From Pyramidobacter sp. YE332 (lineage in GTDB: Bacteria; Synergistota; Synergistia; Synergistales; Dethiosulfovibrionaceae), in NCBI RefSeq assembly GCF_033060595.1, contig NZ_CP133038.1, positions 2,666,001 to 2,730,000 of the forward strand: 64,000 nt of DNA, given 5' to 3'. Below are positions 22,941-56,318 of the stretch, one piece after another (position 1 is the first letter of the stretch; each line of letters opens with the position of its first letter). Position numbers and translations under genes: made by a program. The notes beneath the pieces are model-generated. The model made no database searches and was not told the DNA's origin. It saw only the letters and a list, made by a program, of their open reading frames with translations.

Positions 22941-22970
22941 TATTTTCAAAATCGTGAGAATTTTCTCCCT

Positions 22971-22998
22971 TGACAGTTTGAGAAATGAGGCTATAATT
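22971..22998 (+). promoter_or_regulatory. Sigma-70-type promoter of the asd-dap-lysC operon
   Basis: TTGACA, a 16-base spacer and TATAAT; predicted start near 23005, at the head of the T-box leader. Confidence 0.85.
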
Positions 22999-23004
22999 TC
23001 ACCC

Positions 23005-23291
23005 ATAACTGAAGAGCGATATAAAGGCGTTGAACCGGATCTCCTTGAAGAGCGTGTCGCCGTGCCAGAGAGAAAGCCCCGCAGGCTGAAAGGGCTTTCA
23101 GCGCGATTTTTTCGGGGAGCAAGGCCCGGGGAGCCGGAATGGAAAGGCTTGTGTGCCGGAGTACATTTCCCGAACTGACCCTCCGTGACCGGGGTCCAAG
23201 CGGGGCGTGAGATGGAATGCGTCCAAGCAGGGTGGTACCGCGAGACTGTGATGGCTCGTCCCTACAGAACGATGTGGGGACGAGTTTTTTA
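23005..23291 (+). promoter_or_regulatory. T-box leader: stem regions, antiterminator and first terminator
   Basis: The T-box sequence AAGCAGGGTGGTACCGCG ends at 23242. AGAGAG followed by a GAAAGCCC/GGGCTTTC stem (about 23066-23102) is the usual stem III neighbourhood. The terminator CTCGTCCCTA paired with TGGGGACGAG plus T6 ends at 23290. T-boxes read tRNA charging and allow read-through when the tRNA is uncharged. Lysine, or another aspartate-family amino acid, is expected from the genes downstream. I could not assign the specifier codon with confidence. Confidence 0.88.
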
Positions 23292-23324
23292 GTATGGCGG
23301 TACGCCGTGCGCGGCGGCGCGAAA

Positions 23325-23416
23325 TCGCGCTCAAGCAGGGTGGTACCGCGTGCTGGAGGCTGAACGGCGCGTCCCTGTGCGTTCAGTTTCGGGCGCACGG
23401 AGACGCGCCGTTTTTG
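23325..23416 (+). promoter_or_regulatory. Second T-box antiterminator/terminator module without its own stem I
   Basis: The segment CAAGCAGGGTGGTACCGCG at 23332-23350 is an exact repeat of the first T-box motif. It is followed by its own terminator (ACGGCGCGTC paired with GACGCGCCGT, then T5, ending near 23415). Only about 40 bases separate it from the first terminator, too few for a specifier domain. Confidence 0.8.
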
Positions 23417-23477: not shown

Positions 23478-24464
23478 ATGAAACTGGCGGTGGTAGGCGC
23501 GACGGGCGAAGTCGGCCGCACGATGGTCCGCGTTTTGGAAGAGCAGGGAGTCCGCCCCGGGACGATCCGATTTTTCGCTTCGCCCCGCAGCGCGGGGACG
23601 GAACTGGAGTTCGCCGGCCGCCGCGTGGCGGTCGAGAAATTGACGAAAGAGTGGGTCCCCGCCGGGACGTTCGATTACGTGATCATGTCGGCGGGGTCGG
23701 AGCTGTCGGCGTGGTTCGCCCCCGTCGCCGCCTCGCGCGGCGCGGTGGTGATCGACAACAGCTCGCGCTGGCGCATGGATCCGGAAAAGCTGCTGGTGGT
23801 GCCGGAGATCAACGGCGATCTGCTCGCGGGCTACCGCGGCATCGTCGCCAATCCCAACTGTTCGACGATCCAGATGGTGCTGGGGCTGTACAAGGTGCAC
23901 GAGCGCTTCGGCCTCAAAAACATTGTCGTCAGCACGTACCAGGCCGTCAGCGGCGCGGGACGGCGCGGCATCGACGAGCTGCTGGCGCAGGAGCGCGGCG
24001 GCACGGAGTACAAGAAGTTCGCGGCGCCGATCCACCGCAACGTGGTGCCGCAGATCGACGCGTTTCTGGACAACGGCTTCACCAAGGAAGAAATGAAGAT
24101 GGTCGACGAGCCACGCAAGATCTTGCGCGACGATTCGATCATGTGCTGGCCCACGACGGTGCGCGTGCCGGTGCTGTACGGCCACAGCGAAGCGGTCTTC
24201 GCGGAGACGCGCGACCCTTTCGGCACGGTCGAGGATCTGCTCGAAGTGATGCGAACGCAGGAACACGTGACCGTCAGCGACGAGCCCGTAATCACGCCCG
24301 CGGTCGACGCCGCGGGCACGGACGCGACGTTCGTCAGCCGCGTGCGCAGCTTCGACGACCGGCATTTTTTGCAGTGGAACGTGGCCGACAACGTGCGCGT
24401 GGGCGCGGCTACCAACGCCGTGCGCATCCTGCTCCGTCATGCGGCGCTGAACGGCGTGCGCTGA
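23478..24464 (+). CDS. asd: Aspartate-semialdehyde dehydrogenase
   Basis: A 328-residue NADP-dependent enzyme reducing aspartyl phosphate to aspartate semialdehyde, the branch point to lysine, threonine and methionine. GATGEVGRTMV is the cofactor loop, NPNCSTIQ carries the catalytic Cys (about residue 130), and AAPIHRNVVPQID and GHSEAVF are substrate-side segments. GGGAGGAG lies upstream of ATG 23478. It is the first gene of the T-box-controlled operon. A 254-bp gap with a parS-like site and a dispersed repeat separates it from dapA. Confidence 0.95.
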   Translation: MKLAVVGATGEVGRTMVRVLEEQGVRPGTIRFFASPRSAGTELEFAGRRVAVEKLTKEWVPAGTFDYVIMSAGSELSAWFAPVAASRGAVVIDNSSRWRMDPEKLLVVPEINGDLLAGYRGIVANPNCSTIQMVLGLYKVHERFGLKNIVVSTYQAVSGAGRRGIDELLAQERGGTEYKKFAAPIHRNVVPQIDAFLDNGFTKEEMKMVDEPRKILRDDSIMCWPTTVRVPVLYGHSEAVFAETRDPFGTVEDLLEVMRTQEHVTVSDEPVITPAVDAAGTDATFVSRVRSFDDRHFLQWNVADNVRVGAATNAVRILLRHAALNGVR

Positions 24465-24718: not shown

Positions 24719-25609
24719 ATGTTCAGAGGTACAGGCACCGCGCTGATCACGCCTTTTCGCAACGGAGCCGTCGACTTCGACGCGCTGGGCGAGCTTTTGG
24801 ACTTTCAGGTGGAAAACGGCGTCGACGCGCTGATCGTGCTCGGCACCACGGGCGAGGCGGCGACGCTGACGCCCGCGGAACGCGACGAGGTGATCTCCTT
24901 CGCGCTGCGCACGGTGGACGGGCGAATCCCCGTCGTCATCGGCACGGGCACCAACAACACGGCTTCCACCGTCGACCTGTCGCGCCGCGCCGAGGAACTG
25001 GGCGCCGACGGCGCGCTGGTGGTGACGCCTTTCTACAACAAACCCAACCAGGAAGGGCTGTACCGGCATTTCCGCACCGTGGCCGAGTCCGTGAGGATCC
25101 CCGTGATTTTGTACAACGTGCCCGGGCGCACGGGCGTCAATCTGGCGCCGGAAACGGTGTTGCGCCTAGCCCAGATCGAGAACATCGTCGGCGTCAAAGA
25201 AGCCAGCGGCAACCAGTATCAGTGCGACAGCCTGATCCGTTCGCTTCAGGTCGTGCGCCCCGACTTCCGCGTCTGGTCGGGCAACGACGACCAGGCATTC
25301 CATCTCGTCTGCGGCGGCGGCGACGGCGTCATCTCCGTGCTGTCCAACGTGCTGCCCGCGCAGACCGTGGCGATGATCGACGCCGCGCTCGGCGGCGACG
25401 TGACGGCGGCGCGCCGGCTGCATCTTCGGCTGCTGCCGCTGATGAAGGATCTCTTCAACGAATCCAACCCGATCCCCGTCAAGTTCGCCGCCGGCGAGCT
25501 GGGACTGTGCCGCGACGAGCTGCGTCTGCCGCTGGTGCCCGCCGGCGAAAGAACGCGCGAGCTGGTGCGCGCCGACCTGCTCGAGCTGAGCGCGCTGGAG
25601 GCCGAGTAA
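24719..25609 (+). CDS. dapA: 4-hydroxy-tetrahydrodipicolinate synthase
   Basis: A 296-residue TIM-barrel aldolase condensing pyruvate with aspartate semialdehyde. GTGTALITPF at the N-terminus, LGTTGEAATL (pyruvate-binding Thr pair), YNVPGRTGVNL (catalytic Tyr) and GVKEASGN (Schiff-base Lys) are all present. AAAGGAG lies 9 bases before the ATG. The stop overlaps the dapB start by one base (TAATG). Confidence 0.96.
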   Translation: MFRGTGTALITPFRNGAVDFDALGELLDFQVENGVDALIVLGTTGEAATLTPAERDEVISFALRTVDGRIPVVIGTGTNNTASTVDLSRRAEELGADGALVVTPFYNKPNQEGLYRHFRTVAESVRIPVILYNVPGRTGVNLAPETVLRLAQIENIVGVKEASGNQYQCDSLIRSLQVVRPDFRVWSGNDDQAFHLVCGGGDGVISVLSNVLPAQTVAMIDAALGGDVTAARRLHLRLLPLMKDLFNESNPIPVKFAAGELGLCRDELRLPLVPAGERTRELVRADLLELSALEAE

Positions 25610-26256
25610 TGGCGCTCTCCGTTTCCTACGGCGTGATCGGCTCTACCGGACGCATGGGGCGCGAGATCGCGGCCGCCGCCGGCGGAGCTCCCTGTCTCTG
25701 CGTCTGGGACGAAGGCGAAACCTGCGACGGTACGCCGCGCGTCATCTTCGACTTTTCGTCCGCCGCCGTCCTGCCGCATACCGTCGAGCTGTGCCGCCGC
25801 CACAAAAGCGCGCTGGTCATGGGCACCACGGCGCTGAACGACGGGCACATGGCCGCGCTGCGCGATCTCGCCGAGGAAGTTCCGGTCGTACAGAGCTTCA
25901 ACTATTCCATTGGCATCGCCGTCATGGCCATGATCCTGCGCGAGTTCGCGCCGCTGTTGGCCGACTGGGACGCCGAGATCGCCGAGGCGCACCACGTCCA
26001 CAAAAAAGACGCGCCCTCCGGCACGGCGCTGATGCTGGGCAAAGCGCTGGGGCGCGACGTGCCCATGCATTCCTTCCGCCTCGGCGGCCTGCCGGGAGAT
26101 CACGAGGCCCTGTTCGGCAACGAGGGCGAGACGCTCAGCGTCCGCCATCACGCCATCAGCCGCAGCGTCTTCGCCATCGGCGCGGTCAGGGCCGCCCGCT
26201 TCGCGCTGACGAAGGACAAGGGGCTGTTCACATTCGAAGACGTGGTGCGCGGCTGA
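25609..26256 (+). CDS. dapB: 4-hydroxy-tetrahydrodipicolinate reductase
   Basis: A 215-residue, short-form DapB (E. coli has 273 residues). GSTGRMGREI is the NAD(P) loop, GTTAL follows the cofactor site, and EAHHVHKKDAPSGTAL is the diagnostic catalytic and substrate-binding segment. The short length reflects a compact N-terminal domain. It is translationally coupled to dapA and followed by dapH after 27 bp. Confidence 0.93.
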   Translation: MALSVSYGVIGSTGRMGREIAAAAGGAPCLCVWDEGETCDGTPRVIFDFSSAAVLPHTVELCRRHKSALVMGTTALNDGHMAALRDLAEEVPVVQSFNYSIGIAVMAMILREFAPLLADWDAEIAEAHHVHKKDAPSGTALMLGKALGRDVPMHSFRLGGLPGDHEALFGNEGETLSVRHHAISRSVFAIGAVRAARFALTKDKGLFTFEDVVRG

Positions 26257-26283: not shown

Positions 26284-26982
26284 ATGAACACAGAAGAAGT
26301 GATCCGCCTCATCAAGGAGTCAAAAAAGCGCACCGTCGCCCGCGTCTTTGTGGCCGGCGACCTGAAAGACGTCGAGTGGGGCGCGCTGCACTTCGTGGGC
26401 AGTTCCGACTTCGGCACCGTCAAGGGCGACCTGCCCGAGATCCTCAAAGTTTTGGAAGCCAACGGCGACCGCATCGAGGACTGCGAGGTGGAAGTCGCCG
26501 CGCGCAACAGCGCCGTGCCGCTCGCCGACCTGACCCGTTACGAGGCCCGCATCGAACCCGGCGCGGTGATCCGCGACATGGTGGAGATCGGCAAAAACGC
26601 CGTGGTGATGATGGGCGCGGTGATCAACATCGGCGCTTCGGTCGGCGAAGGCACGATGATCGACATGAACGCGGTGCTCGGCGGACGTGCGCAGGTGGGC
26701 AAAAACTGTCACATCGGCGCCGGCGCCGTCATCGCCGGAGTGATCGAACCCGCCAGCGCCCAGCCGGTCGTGATCGAAGACGGCGTGCTCGTCGGCGCCA
26801 ACGCCGTCGTGCTCGAAGGCGTCCGCGTCGGGGCCGGATCCGTCGTCGCCGCAGGCGCGGTCGTCACCGCCGACGTTCCCGCCGGCGTAGTCGTGGCCGG
26901 CACGCCCGCGCGCGTGATTAAAAACGTGGATTCCCGCACCGAGGGCAAGACGGCTGTTGTCGAAGCCCTGAGAGAGCTTTAG
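26284..26982 (+). CDS. dapH: 2,3,4,5-tetrahydropyridine-2,6-dicarboxylate N-acetyltransferase
   Basis: A 232-residue left-handed beta-helix acyltransferase. [51 protein letters not shown] and [14 protein letters not shown] closely track DapH of B. subtilis (236 residues). This places the organism on the acetylase branch of the diaminopimelate pathway. GGAGG lies 10 bases upstream. lysC begins 3 bp after the stop. Confidence 0.94.
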
Positions 26983-26985
26983 GAA

Positions 26986-28230
26986 ATGGCGGCTCCCGTA
27001 CAGATCGTCCGCACCGCGGTGCTGAAATACGGCGGCTCGTCCGTGGCCGACGCGGACAAGATCCGCGCCGTCGCCGCCAAAGTCGCCGCCCGCTGCCGGA
27101 GCGGCGAGCGCCTGCTCGTCGTCGTCTCTGCCATGGGCAAGACCACCAATCGTCTCATCGACCTCGCCGCGGACGTGTCCGGCAACAGCGCCGGCTACAA
27201 GCGCGAGATGGACATGCTGATGGCCACGGGCGAGCAGGTCTCGGCTGCGCTGCTGGCCATGGCCCTGCGCGACCTCGGATGCGACGCTCTGTCCATGAAC
27301 GCCTATCAGATCGGCATGCTGACGACCAACGCCTACGGCGGCGCGCGCATCCGCGACCTCGACGCCGGGCGGCTGCGCCTCGAGCTGGACGCGCGCGGCG
27401 TCGTCGTGGTGACGGGGTTTCAGGGCGTCGCCGAGAACGGCGATTTGACCACGCTCGGGCGCGGCGGCAGCGACACGTCCGCCATCGCCATCGCCGCGGC
27501 GCTGCACTGTCCGTGCGAGATCTACAGCGACGTGGACGGCGTCTACGCCTGCGACCCGCGCATCATCCCCGACGCCAAAAAACTGGAGTATGTCACCTAC
27601 GAAGAGATGCTGGAAATGGCTTCCTGCGGCGCCAGAGTGCTGCACTCGCGCGGCGTGGAGATCGCCGACAAGCAGCAGGTGGAGCTCTACTGCGGTTCCA
27701 CTTTTTCCGACGAAAGAGGCACGAGAATCGTGAAAAACCTTCCCGAATGGCTTGAGCATCCCGTCGTCACCGGCGTCGCCGTCGACGCCGACCAGATCAA
27801 GGTCAACCTGCGCGGTCTGCCCGAGGACGTGCACCTCTACACGCGCGTCTTCAACGAGCTGGCGGCGTGCTGCATCAACCTCGACATGATCGCCATCGTC
27901 TCCGAGGGCGGCGAAGCGGCCGTGACGTTCTCCGTGATCCGCGGCGACGTGGCCCTGGTCCGTCCTGCTTTGGAAGCAGCCCTGCAGGGACTGGACGGCT
28001 GGACGATGACCGTCGACGGCGAGGTCGCCAAAGTGTCGGCCATCGGCGTCGGCATGCAGGCGGCCTCCGGCGTGGCCGGGCGCTTTTTCGGCGCGCTCGA
28101 ACGCGCCCGTATCGACGTGCTCGGCGCCACCACCTCGGAGATCAAGATCGCCGTGCTCGTGCCGCGCGCCCAGGCGCAGAGCGCCGCCGACGCGTTGATG
28201 ACCGAGTTCGACCGCAAGGTCGGAGAGTGA
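26986..28230 (+). CDS. lysC: Aspartate kinase
   Basis: A 414-residue monofunctional aspartokinase. VLKYGGSSVADADKI is the N-terminal catalytic signature, FQGVAENGDLTTLGRGGSDTSA the nucleotide-binding region, and two ACT domains follow (from about residue 270; VSEGGEAAVTFSV and TTSEIKIAVLV), suggesting feedback inhibition. It is the last gene of the tight block and ends at a terminator. Co-transcription with asd behind the T-box gives two layers of control. Confidence 0.95.
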   Translation: MAAPVQIVRTAVLKYGGSSVADADKIRAVAAKVAARCRSGERLLVVVSAMGKTTNRLIDLAADVSGNSAGYKREMDMLMATGEQVSAALLAMALRDLGCDALSMNAYQIGMLTTNAYGGARIRDLDAGRLRLELDARGVVVVTGFQGVAENGDLTTLGRGGSDTSAIAIAAALHCPCEIYSDVDGVYACDPRIIPDAKKLEYVTYEEMLEMASCGARVLHSRGVEIADKQQVELYCGSTFSDERGTRIVKNLPEWLEHPVVTGVAVDADQIKVNLRGLPEDVHLYTRVFNELAACCINLDMIAIVSEGGEAAVTFSVIRGDVALVRPALEAALQGLDGWTMTVDGEVAKVSAIGVGMQAASGVAGRFFGALERARIDVLGATTSEIKIAVLVPRAQAQSAADALMTEFDRKVGE

Positions 28231-29852: not shown

Positions 29853-30419
29853 TCATTTAAAGCACCTAACAATCCATTGTCTTGCGGTAATACTCCTTAT
29901 GGTCTGAGCGGTGAGATTTCTGATCGTGCGGCACAGACGCTCGACAACGTTCTCAAGCGTCGAAAAAATCTCGTTTCGAAAGCCCTGACAGCGCAGCTCT
30001 CTCCAGATCTGCTCAATGGGGTTCATCTCGGGGGTATAGGGGGGAATATGGAACAGGGTGATGTTGGCAGGAACCTGAAGCGCTTTGGACTTGTGCCAGG
30101 CAGCTCCGTCACAGCAGAGCAGAATATGGTCTTCCGGAAATCGGTGTGAAAGTTCCCGCAGGAAAACGTTCATGCAATCGCTGTCGCAGTTGGGCATGAT
30201 CAGAAAGAGGCTTTCTCCCGTAAGCGGCTCTACGGCACCGTAAGCATAGCGGTATTCGCGGATGTGAAGGCAGGGAACGTTCGGTCGAATGCCTTTCCTG
30301 CACCAGCAGTATTTGGGCGTGTTGATTCTGCCGAAGCCGGCTTCGTCCTGAAACATCAGTCTGACGTTCCCTGTTGTGGATAACTCTTTTAATTCCTGAA
30401 CTTGAGCGTTAATTTTTTT
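29853..30419 (-). CDS. IS630 transposase, DDE catalytic part (copy 2)
   Basis: This frame is open from the A7 slip site (30419-30413) to the stop at 29853. After the slip it reads INAQVQELKEL and then MFQDEAGFGRI (first Asp), LLCCDGAAWHKS (second Asp) and PYTPEMNPIEQIW (Glu, the IS630 signature). An internal ATG at 30356 exists, but expression is more likely by -1 frameshifting from the upstream part, as in many IS630 relatives. Confidence 0.85.
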   Translation of the reverse strand, partial: KKINAQVQELKELSTTGNVRLMFQDEAGFGRINTPKYCWCRKGIRPNVPCLHIREYRYAYGAVEPLTGESLFLIMPNCDSDCMNVFLRELSHRFPEDHILLCCDGAAWHKSKALQVPANITLFHIPPYTPEMNPIEQIWRELRCQGFRNEIFSTLENVVERLCRTIRNLTAQTIRSITARQWIVRCFK

Positions 30420-30892
30420 GAGGCCTCGATGGCCTCCTCGTTCGCTTTCCTGGGGTGACGGCTGCGCGGCATGACTTTTCTCCAGCCATGACGTTTCAGG
30501 ACCGCGTAAATCTGAGTCGGACTGATAGTATGTCCCACCGCGGTCTGATAGGCTTGGGCTATTTCCGCCACCGAAACGATTTCTCCTTTCCCGGCTTTCT
30601 CCAGGTAAGGAGCAAGTACGGCTTCTTCCTGCTCATAGGTCATGTTCCGATGGTTGCCGAGGTAATGGCATTGCAGCACATACGAGAGACCGCGATGGAT
30701 AAACTGCGAGATGATCTTGCTGACGTTCGTGAAGTGGTATTCCGTGATTTCGCTGATTTCTTTCAGGGTTTTCCCTTCGGCGCGCAAGCTGAGGATTCTC
30801 AGTTTGGCTTCGATCTTCTTGTTGCGATTCTTTTTCCGCGCCGCTTCGATTTCCGCTTGCTGTTCCGATGTGATCTCGTATTTTACGGGCAT
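30389..30892 (-). CDS. IS630 transposase, N-terminal DNA-binding part (copy 2)
   Basis: 167 residues, identical to the copy 1 product, with paired helix-turn-helix regions for terminal-repeat recognition. Close to its 3' end the codons TCA AAA AAA TTA form an A7 slippery run. A -1 slip there fuses it to the catalytic part, giving a product of about 340 residues, the normal size of an IS630 transposase. The ribosome site GGAGA precedes the ATG. Confidence 0.88.
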   Translation of the reverse strand: MPVKYEITSEQQAEIEAARKKNRNKKIEAKLRILSLRAEGKTLKEISEITEYHFTNVSKIISQFIHRGLSYVLQCHYLGNHRNMTYEQEEAVLAPYLEKAGKGEIVSVAEIAQAYQTAVGHTISPTQIYAVLKRHGWRKVMPRSRHPRKANEEAIEASKKLTLKFRN

Positions 30893-54362: not shown

Positions 54363-55907
54363 TCAGTCGTCCCAGGACCACTCGTTCATGTTCTCGACGA
54401 CCGAAAGTCCCTGATTGCGTACGGGGATCTTATTCAGCGGGGGGAGGCGTAGCCCCTTGCGGACGAGATAATTGTTCCGGGGACGGCTGATGTACAGAAA
54501 CGGCACGTCCGCGGCGGCACGGGCCTCGGCCTTGCTCCAGAACGCGCTGGCCGTGTTCTGGTCCGTGGCGCGCATCGCCTGGTCGATGAGCGCGTCGACG
54601 TCGGGATTGCTGTAGGACGACGGATTGTTGATGACGGCCTTGTTGATGTTGGAGGAATGGTAATACAGTCTGAAGTCCATGGGGCTGGGAGCGCCGACGC
54701 TCCAACACGTAGGGACCGCGCGGGCTTTTCGGCATTCCGCCCAGGGCGCCGATCTGGCGATGATGCGGATGCCGAGAGCTTTGGCGTTATCAGCCAGCGC
54801 CACCACCGTATTGTAGCGATCCAGATCGTTGCTGCGGCCGGTGACGGTGAACTCGGCCTTGACGCCGTTTTTCTCGCGGATGCCGTCTCCGTCGGTATCT
54901 TTCCAGCCGGCGTCTTCGAGGAGCTTTTTGGCTTCTTCGACGCGATTGTCCTCAAAATCGATATGAGCCGCCCAAGGAAGCGTGTCGCTGCCAATCGAGC
55001 AGGCCGGCGTGCCCATGCCGTTCAGAGCGCGTTCCACCAGCTGCCGGCGGTTGATGCCGATATCCAGCGCCTTGCGGATCGCGGGGTCGCACGTCACGTT
55101 GTTGCCCGTCTTGCTTCCGTCGGGGGCCGTTCCCTCCGGAATGACCGGCAGGTTCACCGCCAACGTCCCCAGGACGTCGAGGCTCAGCAGCTCCATCCCT
55201 TCCACCGCCGAGTGCGCGTACTCGGAATTGACGAGGACGAGATCCAGCTGCCCCGATTGAGCGGCGGCCAACGCCGCGTCTTCGTCGATCTTGAGAATCG
55301 TGACACGCCGGAACGGCGATTTTGTGCCGTAATAATAGGGGTTCGGTTCGAGAATCAACTGCTGATCTTTCTGGAAATCGACGACGCGCCAGGCTCCCGA
55401 ACACACCGGCCGGTCGCCGTACGCTTCGTGATAAGCGTGCGCCGGCACGATGCCCACAAAGCTCAGAGCGTAAGGGAACAGCGACGAAGGCTCGCTCAAC
55501 GTGAATTCTACCGTGAAATCGTCGAGGGCCTTCACGCTCTCCATGACCGTCAGGTCGGCGGCCGAAGCGCTGGCCTTGGTCTTCTCGTAGGTGAAGACGA
55601 TGTCTTGGGCGGTCAGCGGCGTGCCGTCGGCGAACTTTGCGTCGCGGCGGATCTCATACGTGTAGCTGAGACCGTCGCCGCTGATTTTCTCGCGTATCGC
55701 CAGATCTTTTTCGAGCACGTTGTCCTTTCCCGACTTCAGCAGGTGGCAGTGAAAAATATCGGGCCCCCATACGCCGTGCCCGAGAATGGGATCGAATTTG
55801 CCCGCCACCATGTTGACGCCCGTAGAGATCACGATCTCGTCCTTCGCCATGGCCGTGCCGCAGAGCACGGCTGCCAGAGCCAACGCCGCAAGAAAACTCT
55901 TTTTCAT
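54363..55907 (-). CDS. Nickel/peptide-type ABC transporter substrate-binding protein (NikA/OppA-like), B12-regulated
   Basis: A 514-residue exported type II binding protein. The signal peptide is MKKSFLAALALAAVLCGTAMA, cleaved before KDEIV. YTYEIRRDAKFADGTPLTAQDIVFTYEK is the SBP family 5 signature, and RKALDIGINRRQLVERAL the second-lobe segment. Nik/Opp-type proteins bind Ni2+, other metal chelates or peptides. The cobalamin riboswitch upstream suggests that the ligand is cobalt, a cobalt chelate or a corrinoid. It is the first gene of the five-gene operon. Confidence 0.9.
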   Translation of the reverse strand: MKKSFLAALALAAVLCGTAMAKDEIVISTGVNMVAGKFDPILGHGVWGPDIFHCHLLKSGKDNVLEKDLAIREKISGDGLSYTYEIRRDAKFADGTPLTAQDIVFTYEKTKASASAADLTVMESVKALDDFTVEFTLSEPSSLFPYALSFVGIVPAHAYHEAYGDRPVCSGAWRVVDFQKDQQLILEPNPYYYGTKSPFRRVTILKIDEDAALAAAQSGQLDLVLVNSEYAHSAVEGMELLSLDVLGTLAVNLPVIPEGTAPDGSKTGNNVTCDPAIRKALDIGINRRQLVERALNGMGTPACSIGSDTLPWAAHIDFEDNRVEEAKKLLEDAGWKDTDGDGIREKNGVKAEFTVTGRSNDLDRYNTVVALADNAKALGIRIIARSAPWAECRKARAVPTCWSVGAPSPMDFRLYYHSSNINKAVINNPSSYSNPDVDALIDQAMRATDQNTASAFWSKAEARAAADVPFLYISRPRNNYLVRKGLRLPPLNKIPVRNQGLSVVENMNEWSWDD

Positions 55908-55973
55908 GTCTGCCTCCAAAGTATGCTTGCGCGGAAAACCGCGCTCTTGGCGCTTTGGCCGGAGAGTGAAAAC

Positions 55974-56018
55974 GAAAAAACACGCCGGCTGCGTCCGCAA
56001 GGACACAAACCGGCGCGT
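55974..56018 (-). terminator. Riboswitch expression-platform terminator
   Basis: On the minus strand CGCCGGTTTGTGTCC pairs with GGACGCAGCCGGCG (one-base bulges), followed by TGT6. It lies between the riboswitch and the binding-protein start, so ligand binding would stop transcription here. Confidence 0.82.
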
Positions 56019-56074
56019 CCGTTTTCACGCGCACTCGGCGCTCGCTTTGGGCACGGCGAACGCTTCTTTCGAAA

Positions 56075-56275
56075 ATGTGTAAGTCTCCTGACTCGCGCTC
56101 TGGAAGACGATGGTCTTGCCGCGTTCACGCCTGTCTTCCCATGGCGAAGCCACAGTGACGGACTTTCGTCCCGGCGCCCATACCACGGCGGCGCTTCGGC
56201 GTGACCTCGCGCTTACAGTGCCGGCCGCGCGGGGATTTTCACCCCATTCCATTTACGCCGTTTCCGCCGAACGGA
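56075..56275 (-). promoter_or_regulatory. Cobalamin riboswitch
   Basis: On the minus strand the core is readable: GGTGAAAATCCC (56244-56233), CACTGTAAGCG (complement at 56210-56220), GTCACTGTGG, and the B12 box AGTCAGGAGACT (56093-56082). The order and spacing fit the class. It lies between the promoter at 56319 and the terminator at 55974, controlling the Nik-like ABC operon. Confidence 0.9.
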
Positions 56276-56318
56276 AGGGAAACGGCGACACATTTTCCGC
56301 AATTCTTTCCATGCAGCG

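Follow-up and report, generated by a model that had tools for sequence, protein, structure and literature searches.

The lysine operon of Pyramidobacter sp. YE332 is preceded by a T-box leader in which one tRNA-sensing domain is followed by two complete antiterminator/terminator modules. We regard the asd leader as a transcriptional tRNA-Lys T-box in which one tRNA-bound sensor probably serves two attenuators in series, multiplying repression. The leader belongs to a known, poorly understood class, the partially tandem T-boxes. T-boxes with duplicated terminator-antiterminator elements were reportedly first described by Vitreschak et al. in 2008 (RNA 14:717). An initial annotation of this DNA had set the one-sensor layout apart from known tandem T-boxes; the layout is real, but its novelty is not, as partially tandem T-boxes were already a recognized class whose mode of action was unknown at the time of a 2020 review (PMC7583486).

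A single sensor and two modules upstream of asd

Coordinates in Table 1 refer to the window, the whole stretch of 64,000 nucleotides that was analyzed. The 19-base repeat reported by the initial annotation, CAAGCAGGGTGGTACCGCG, was located by sequence search at 23224-23242 and 23332-23350, its two starts exactly 108 nt apart, and a terminator with stem and T-run was placed after each copy, ending where the annotation had put them, near 23290 and 23415. The leader is a divergent T-box that covers positions 1-219 of the 219 in the Rfam T-box model RF00230, with an antiterminator and terminator after its long stem I, stem II region and stem III, although its score of 51.9 bits falls below the curated cut-off of 93 bits; T-boxes of family relatives scored 48-93 bits against the same cut-off. 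The two motifs read off stem I agree with the published elbow-binding consensus, AGAGA plus UGxRA (PMC7583486). In the asd leader and the Lys leaders L002, L018, L027 and L032, which cover both genera of the family, a compact specifier loop is missing the AGUA/GAA loop-E motif normally present on the 5′ side, which may account for the low Rfam scores.

RNA folding gave both antiterminators the same form, an A1 helix, a 7-nt bulge (UGGUACC) and an A2 helix, and in both modules antiterminator and terminator are mutually exclusive, the terminator taking up the 3′ arm of the antiterminator. Whole-module folding energies were -29.3 kcal/mol for module 1 and -46.8 kcal/mol for module 2. Antiterminator energies are clean for the asd leader and rough for the wider locus collection described below, where some take in part of the terminator hairpin. 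The annotation had argued that a gap of about 40 bases leaves too little space for another stem I, and since the linker measures 41 nt and stem I about 108 nt, there is indeed no room for one. The Rfam search that it had proposed matched a single T-box copy over the leader, with no match in the linker, and thus a single stem I; together with folding, this yielded one decoding domain and two complete switch modules, the partially tandem arrangement. No second complete stem I, as in a fully tandem T-box, was found by linker length or model search.

Table 1. Features of the asd leader and operon, in window coordinates
Feature	Coordinates	Strand	Basis or remarks
Sigma-70 promoter TTGACA-16-TATAAT	22970..22997	+	12/12 consensus bases; just upstream of T-box leader
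Complete T-box leader with module 1 (Rfam RF00230)	23021..23266	+	cmscan 51.9 bits, E 1.7e-10
Stem I	23027..23134	+	cmscan alignment; ~108 nt
Elbow-binding motif AGAGA	23067-23071	+	read off sequence, in stem I
Elbow-binding motif UGAAA	23087-23091	+	read off sequence; fits UGxRA
Specifier AAG (Lys)	23121..23123	+	stem I position, conservation, tRNA-Lys(CUU), Lys genes downstream
Antiterminator 1	23229..23263	+	bulge UGGUACC 23233-23239; canonical fold, -9.6 kcal/mol
Terminator 1 with T-run	23253..23290	+	stem 23253-23286, then T-run
Linker	23291..23331	+	41 nt; fast-evolving; no T-box model match
Antiterminator 2	23337..23376	+	bulge UGGUACC 23341-23347; canonical fold, -17.7 kcal/mol
Terminator 2 with T-run	23363..23415	+	stem 23363-23412, then T5
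asd, aspartate-semialdehyde dehydrogenase	23478..24464	+	NF011456 347 bits, above cut-off
dapA	24719..25609	+	TIGR00674 335 bits
dapB	25609..26256	+	TIGR00036 156 bits
dapH, tetrahydrodipicolinate N-acetyltransferase	26284..26982	+	TIGR03532 332 bits
lysC, aspartate kinase	26986..28230	+	NF005154 490 bits

Gene-family models agree with the operon asd-dapA-dapB-dapH-lysC as originally annotated. We read the specifier as AAG because only this frame agrees with the regulated genes; the alternative frames CAA and AGG are possible in principle but do not fit asd, dapA, dapB, dapH and lysC downstream. AAG occupied the specifier position in all family Lys leaders inspected, in relatives within the context AAGGYCCGG. 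The host has three tRNA-Lys genes, two with anticodon CUU and one with UUU, all ending in A-CCA, and this end (A73) is complementary to the UGGU of module 1 and of module 2. Specifier and UGGN bulge therefore both match one host tRNA, tRNA-Lys(CUU), and the pathway; the antiterminator that holds the UGGN bulge is in competition with a terminator, and stem I carries elbow motifs. Directly 3′ of lysC is an M20-type amidohydrolase gene (TIGR01891; 28345-29661, + strand), which, with DapH being of the acetyl type, could encode the N-acetyl-diaminopimelate deacetylase of the same pathway.

With the canonical T-box (RF00230) the asd leader shares a stem I with elbow motifs, a specifier, the stem II region, stem III, the UGGN bulge and a mutually exclusive terminator; it differs in its extra module, its specifier loop and its sub-threshold score. 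Fully tandem T-boxes, such as the trp, ilv and thrS leaders of Bacillota, likewise place serial terminators before biosynthesis genes but repeat the whole sensor, which is single here. Described partially tandem T-boxes have in common with the asd leader a single specifier domain with at least two antiterminator/terminator units behind it; what differs is their setting, here in Synergistota and in lysine operons, and the presence elsewhere of counterparts with three and four modules. A 2025 survey of contiguous riboswitches has classes for repeated complete units and for repeated aptamers with one platform, and one aptamer with several platforms is not among them (PMC12452182). In the open-licence literature we found no report of partially tandem T-boxes in Synergistota or of three- or four-module arrays, nor of the bulge-base agreement and synthetase-gene depletion presented below.

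Conservation of module 2 in the Dethiosulfovibrionaceae

T-boxes were detected in 13 of 14 genomes of the family, and all 13 carry a double module, in two genera and mostly at two loci. When 188 Synergistota genomes were scanned with the exact pattern, 13 matched, all from this family; the double module was absent from the other 175, and a phylum-wide spread was not seen. The reversed pattern gave no match in the same 188 genomes, so the double pattern is far from chance. In the host genome, a second double-module leader (L002) precedes lysA, and the third T-box (L001), with specifier UGG (Trp) and a UGGC bulge, has one module only and is followed by a gene for a TrpX-like binding protein, named from its sequence by eye. 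Named Pyramidobacter records hold loci near-identical to the asd leader.

The comparison with related genomes that the initial annotation had proposed showed module 2 to be neither lost nor degenerate. Between the asd leader and those of two congeners (L034, L035), identity was 89-93% in the stem I/II region, 95-98% in module 1 and 89-90% in module 2, but 58-70% in the linker. In the terminator-2 helix 96.4% of cells are paired, and at four pairs both bases have changed (U-A/C-G and A-U/G-C among them); its covariation score was not reached by any shuffle, and slid controls dropped to 25-67% paired. Antiterminator 2 is paired in 100% of cells in 10 relatives, and since it hardly varies, it counts as conserved without covariation evidence of its own. 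The UGGN bulge of module 2 is invariant across the family. A GCGCGAAAUCGCGC hairpin in this species hinted at a conserved stem III in module 2, a candidate that we rejected because it is not general across loci; module 2 generally lacks stem III and retains a CAA..A box ahead of the core. Module 2 of asd leaders is 52% identical to module 2 of lysA leaders, versus 37% to module 1 of its own leader. Modules thus group by position rather than by leader, and the duplication is therefore older than the split between asd and lysA leaders and has been retained since. These alignments show both modules of the asd leader to be under purifying selection.

Multi-module leaders in other bacteria and the genes they precede

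We scanned 84,980 species for pairs of exact cores separated by 85-115 nt. This returned at least 80 loci, with hosts that include Syntrophomonas, Alicyclobacillus, Paenibacillus, Lysinibacillus, Veillonellaceae/Dialister, relatives of Desulfotomaculum, Chloroflexota, Dethiosulfovibrio and Pyramidobacter. Pooling the scan with the family loci and later searches gave at least 112 distinct multi-module loci (102 double, 7 triple and 3 quadruple), spread over Bacillota, Chloroflexota and Synergistota. Modules are spaced 83-116 nt apart (mean 99, sd 9), a range whose upper and lower ends are partly set by the search pattern; in three- and four-module leaders the spacing is mostly 86-93 nt. Triple-module leaders are L039, L049, L065, L069, L072, L088 and L095. 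The Lysinibacillus leaders L101 and L110 each combine a single Phe-type stem I (GAA-UUC-GACC) with four intact modules at intervals of 88-89 nt and precede a gene of the sodium:neurotransmitter-symporter (NSS) family, and the three- and four-module set of Lysinibacillus and Paenibacillus is likewise of Phe type and upstream of an NSS symporter gene. Within a Lysinibacillus locus, modules 2 and 3 share 97% identity, which suggests recent amplification, and L089 no longer has a terminator in its fourth module. One Dialister genome, G190, is very rich in double-module T-boxes (L192, L205, L210, L249, L250, L253, L255), many of them upstream of branched-chain-type binding-protein genes.

The bulge bases bear on whether both modules read the same tRNA. 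Because the exact-core scan fixes U in both bulges, cores with other bases were searched separately; agreement between U and U is mostly built into the search pattern, and only the C/C cases are informative. Ten distinct leaders have UGGC in module 1 and all ten have UGGC in module 2, although they come from one bacterial class and a few related lineages and do not amount to ten independent events. No double of the UGGV type was found in the classes of Syntrophomonas and Desulforamulus. Downstream of the C/C leaders are trp genes (in that case with specifier UGG where it was read) or genes for aminotransferases of the serine-pathway type, and bacterial tRNA-Trp and tRNA-Ser have G73. A U:G wobble is also known from Trp T-boxes (PMC7778990). 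The bulge bases differ in 2 of the 112 leaders, L063:4765 and L183:1501, each with UGGU followed by UGGC. To our knowledge the UGGN bulge has no role beyond pairing with the tRNA end, and the C/C agreement is for that reason the strongest evidence so far that module 2 reads tRNA rather than acting as a mere spare terminator. In the asd leader, sequence and comparison show module 2 to fit the tRNA end that module 1 fits.

Multi-module leaders also differ from single-module ones in the genes that follow. In six genomes, an aminoacyl-tRNA synthetase gene follows about 28 of 52 single-module T-boxes, an approximate figure summed over Pfam synthetase families. No such gene follows any of the 13 multi-module T-boxes in these genomes (Fisher p = 0.0003), in a comparison that covers T-boxes with a detectable core and is drawn toward higher model scores. 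Among 100 first genes behind multi-module leaders, no synthetase occurs in the 25 commonest of 37 Pfam families; DAHP synthase (27), symporters (16), lysA-type decarboxylase (12), branched-chain binding proteins (11) and dapA (6) do, and the genes are ones of biosynthesis or uptake. Such genes would benefit from a tight off-state, and synthetases presumably must never be fully off, so the depletion fits a multiplied termination. A parallel trend exists in fully tandem T-boxes, where thrS is the only synthetase reported in tandem (PMC12452182).

Probable serial attenuation by one bound tRNA, and alternative readings

In the mechanism that we favor for the asd leader, the stem I/stem II domain would capture tRNA-Lys through its anticodon and elbow, and each of the two modules would in turn test the tRNA 3′ end for charging. 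With plentiful lysine, RNA polymerase would face two terminators, and leakage would approach the product of two small probabilities. With uncharged tRNA-Lys, the ACCA end would stabilize antiterminator 1 first. Once polymerase had passed terminator 1, that hairpin could fold harmlessly and free the tRNA 3′ end; terminator 1 is more stable than antiterminator 1 in RNA folding and can therefore form after polymerase passage, releasing the end. The tRNA, still tethered by anticodon and elbow, would then present its 3′ end to antiterminator 2 across the short linker. Both terminators would accordingly respond to tRNA, a single tRNA would be handed over from module 1 to module 2, and tighter or steeper control would be the selected benefit of having two. 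As an illustration with assumed numbers, if each terminator leaks 20% when off and passes 70% when on, induction is 3.5-fold with one module and about 12-fold with two, and the two-module leader leaks 4%. In known T-boxes stem III stacks beside the antiterminator, and since module 2 generally lacks stem III, its contact with the tRNA may differ. We more tentatively extend the favored reading to the wider collection: one aptamer may drive as many as four expression platforms, with its single bound tRNA offering the 3′ end to each in turn and with module number an evolutionary dial for tightness that is used for costly biosynthesis and uptake genes and not for aminoacyl-tRNA synthetases.

That module 2 keeps its bulge, and that this bulge fits the same tRNA, is also compatible with two tRNAs acting together, one held by stem I plus antiterminator 1 while another, uncharged tRNA pairs with antiterminator 2 through NCCA alone, which would make induction second order in uncharged tRNA; fully tandem T-boxes are thought to need two uncharged tRNAs (PMC12452182). 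We consider this rather unlikely for the asd leader, as module 2 lacks any domain for binding the anticodon or elbow and usually has no stem III either, and a four-base contact alone would probably be weak and unspecific. Module 2 might instead be a fail-safe terminator, its antiterminator constitutive or barely responsive, that only lowers basal expression. Antiterminator 2 alone is stable without tRNA, more so than antiterminator 1 (-17.7 vs -9.6 kcal/mol, from free-energy models that are blind to any need for tRNA), and terminator 2 is very strong; the invariance of the UGGN bulge in the family's module 2 and its tracking of the discriminator base in C/C leaders argue against this reading, which we judge unlikely.

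Decay, which the initial annotation had offered as the plain alternative, would make module 2 a functionless or decaying duplicate. Tandem duplication is easy; the Lysinibacillus modules and the terminator missing from L089 point the same way. In the Dethiosulfovibrionaceae, however, two genera have retained core, antiterminator and terminator despite divergence of the linker, and the design stands at two loci per genome and recurs in distant phyla. Module 2 conservation, the compensatory changes in terminator 2, the pairing of antiterminator 2 and the grouping of modules by position led us to reject decay as very improbable.

The asd leader and the 112-locus collection make the mode of action testable: they offer a natural series of one, two, three and four modules per sensor, a bulge base that can be probed by mutation, and a sharp skew in the kinds of gene regulated. 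L063:4765 and L183:1501 are natural test cases for reading by one tRNA. If one tRNA does serve successive terminators, a riboswitch sensor would be reusable within one transcription event, which lies outside the standard picture of one sensor and one platform.

Elsewhere in the window, a cobalamin riboswitch (56061-56308, - strand, 54.8 bits) lies upstream of genes for an ABC-type peptide/nickel-like solute-binding protein (54363-56006) and a permease. A transposase-like gene is split over two ORFs (29853-30356 and 30389-30892, - strand) and resembles an IS630-type element by eye.
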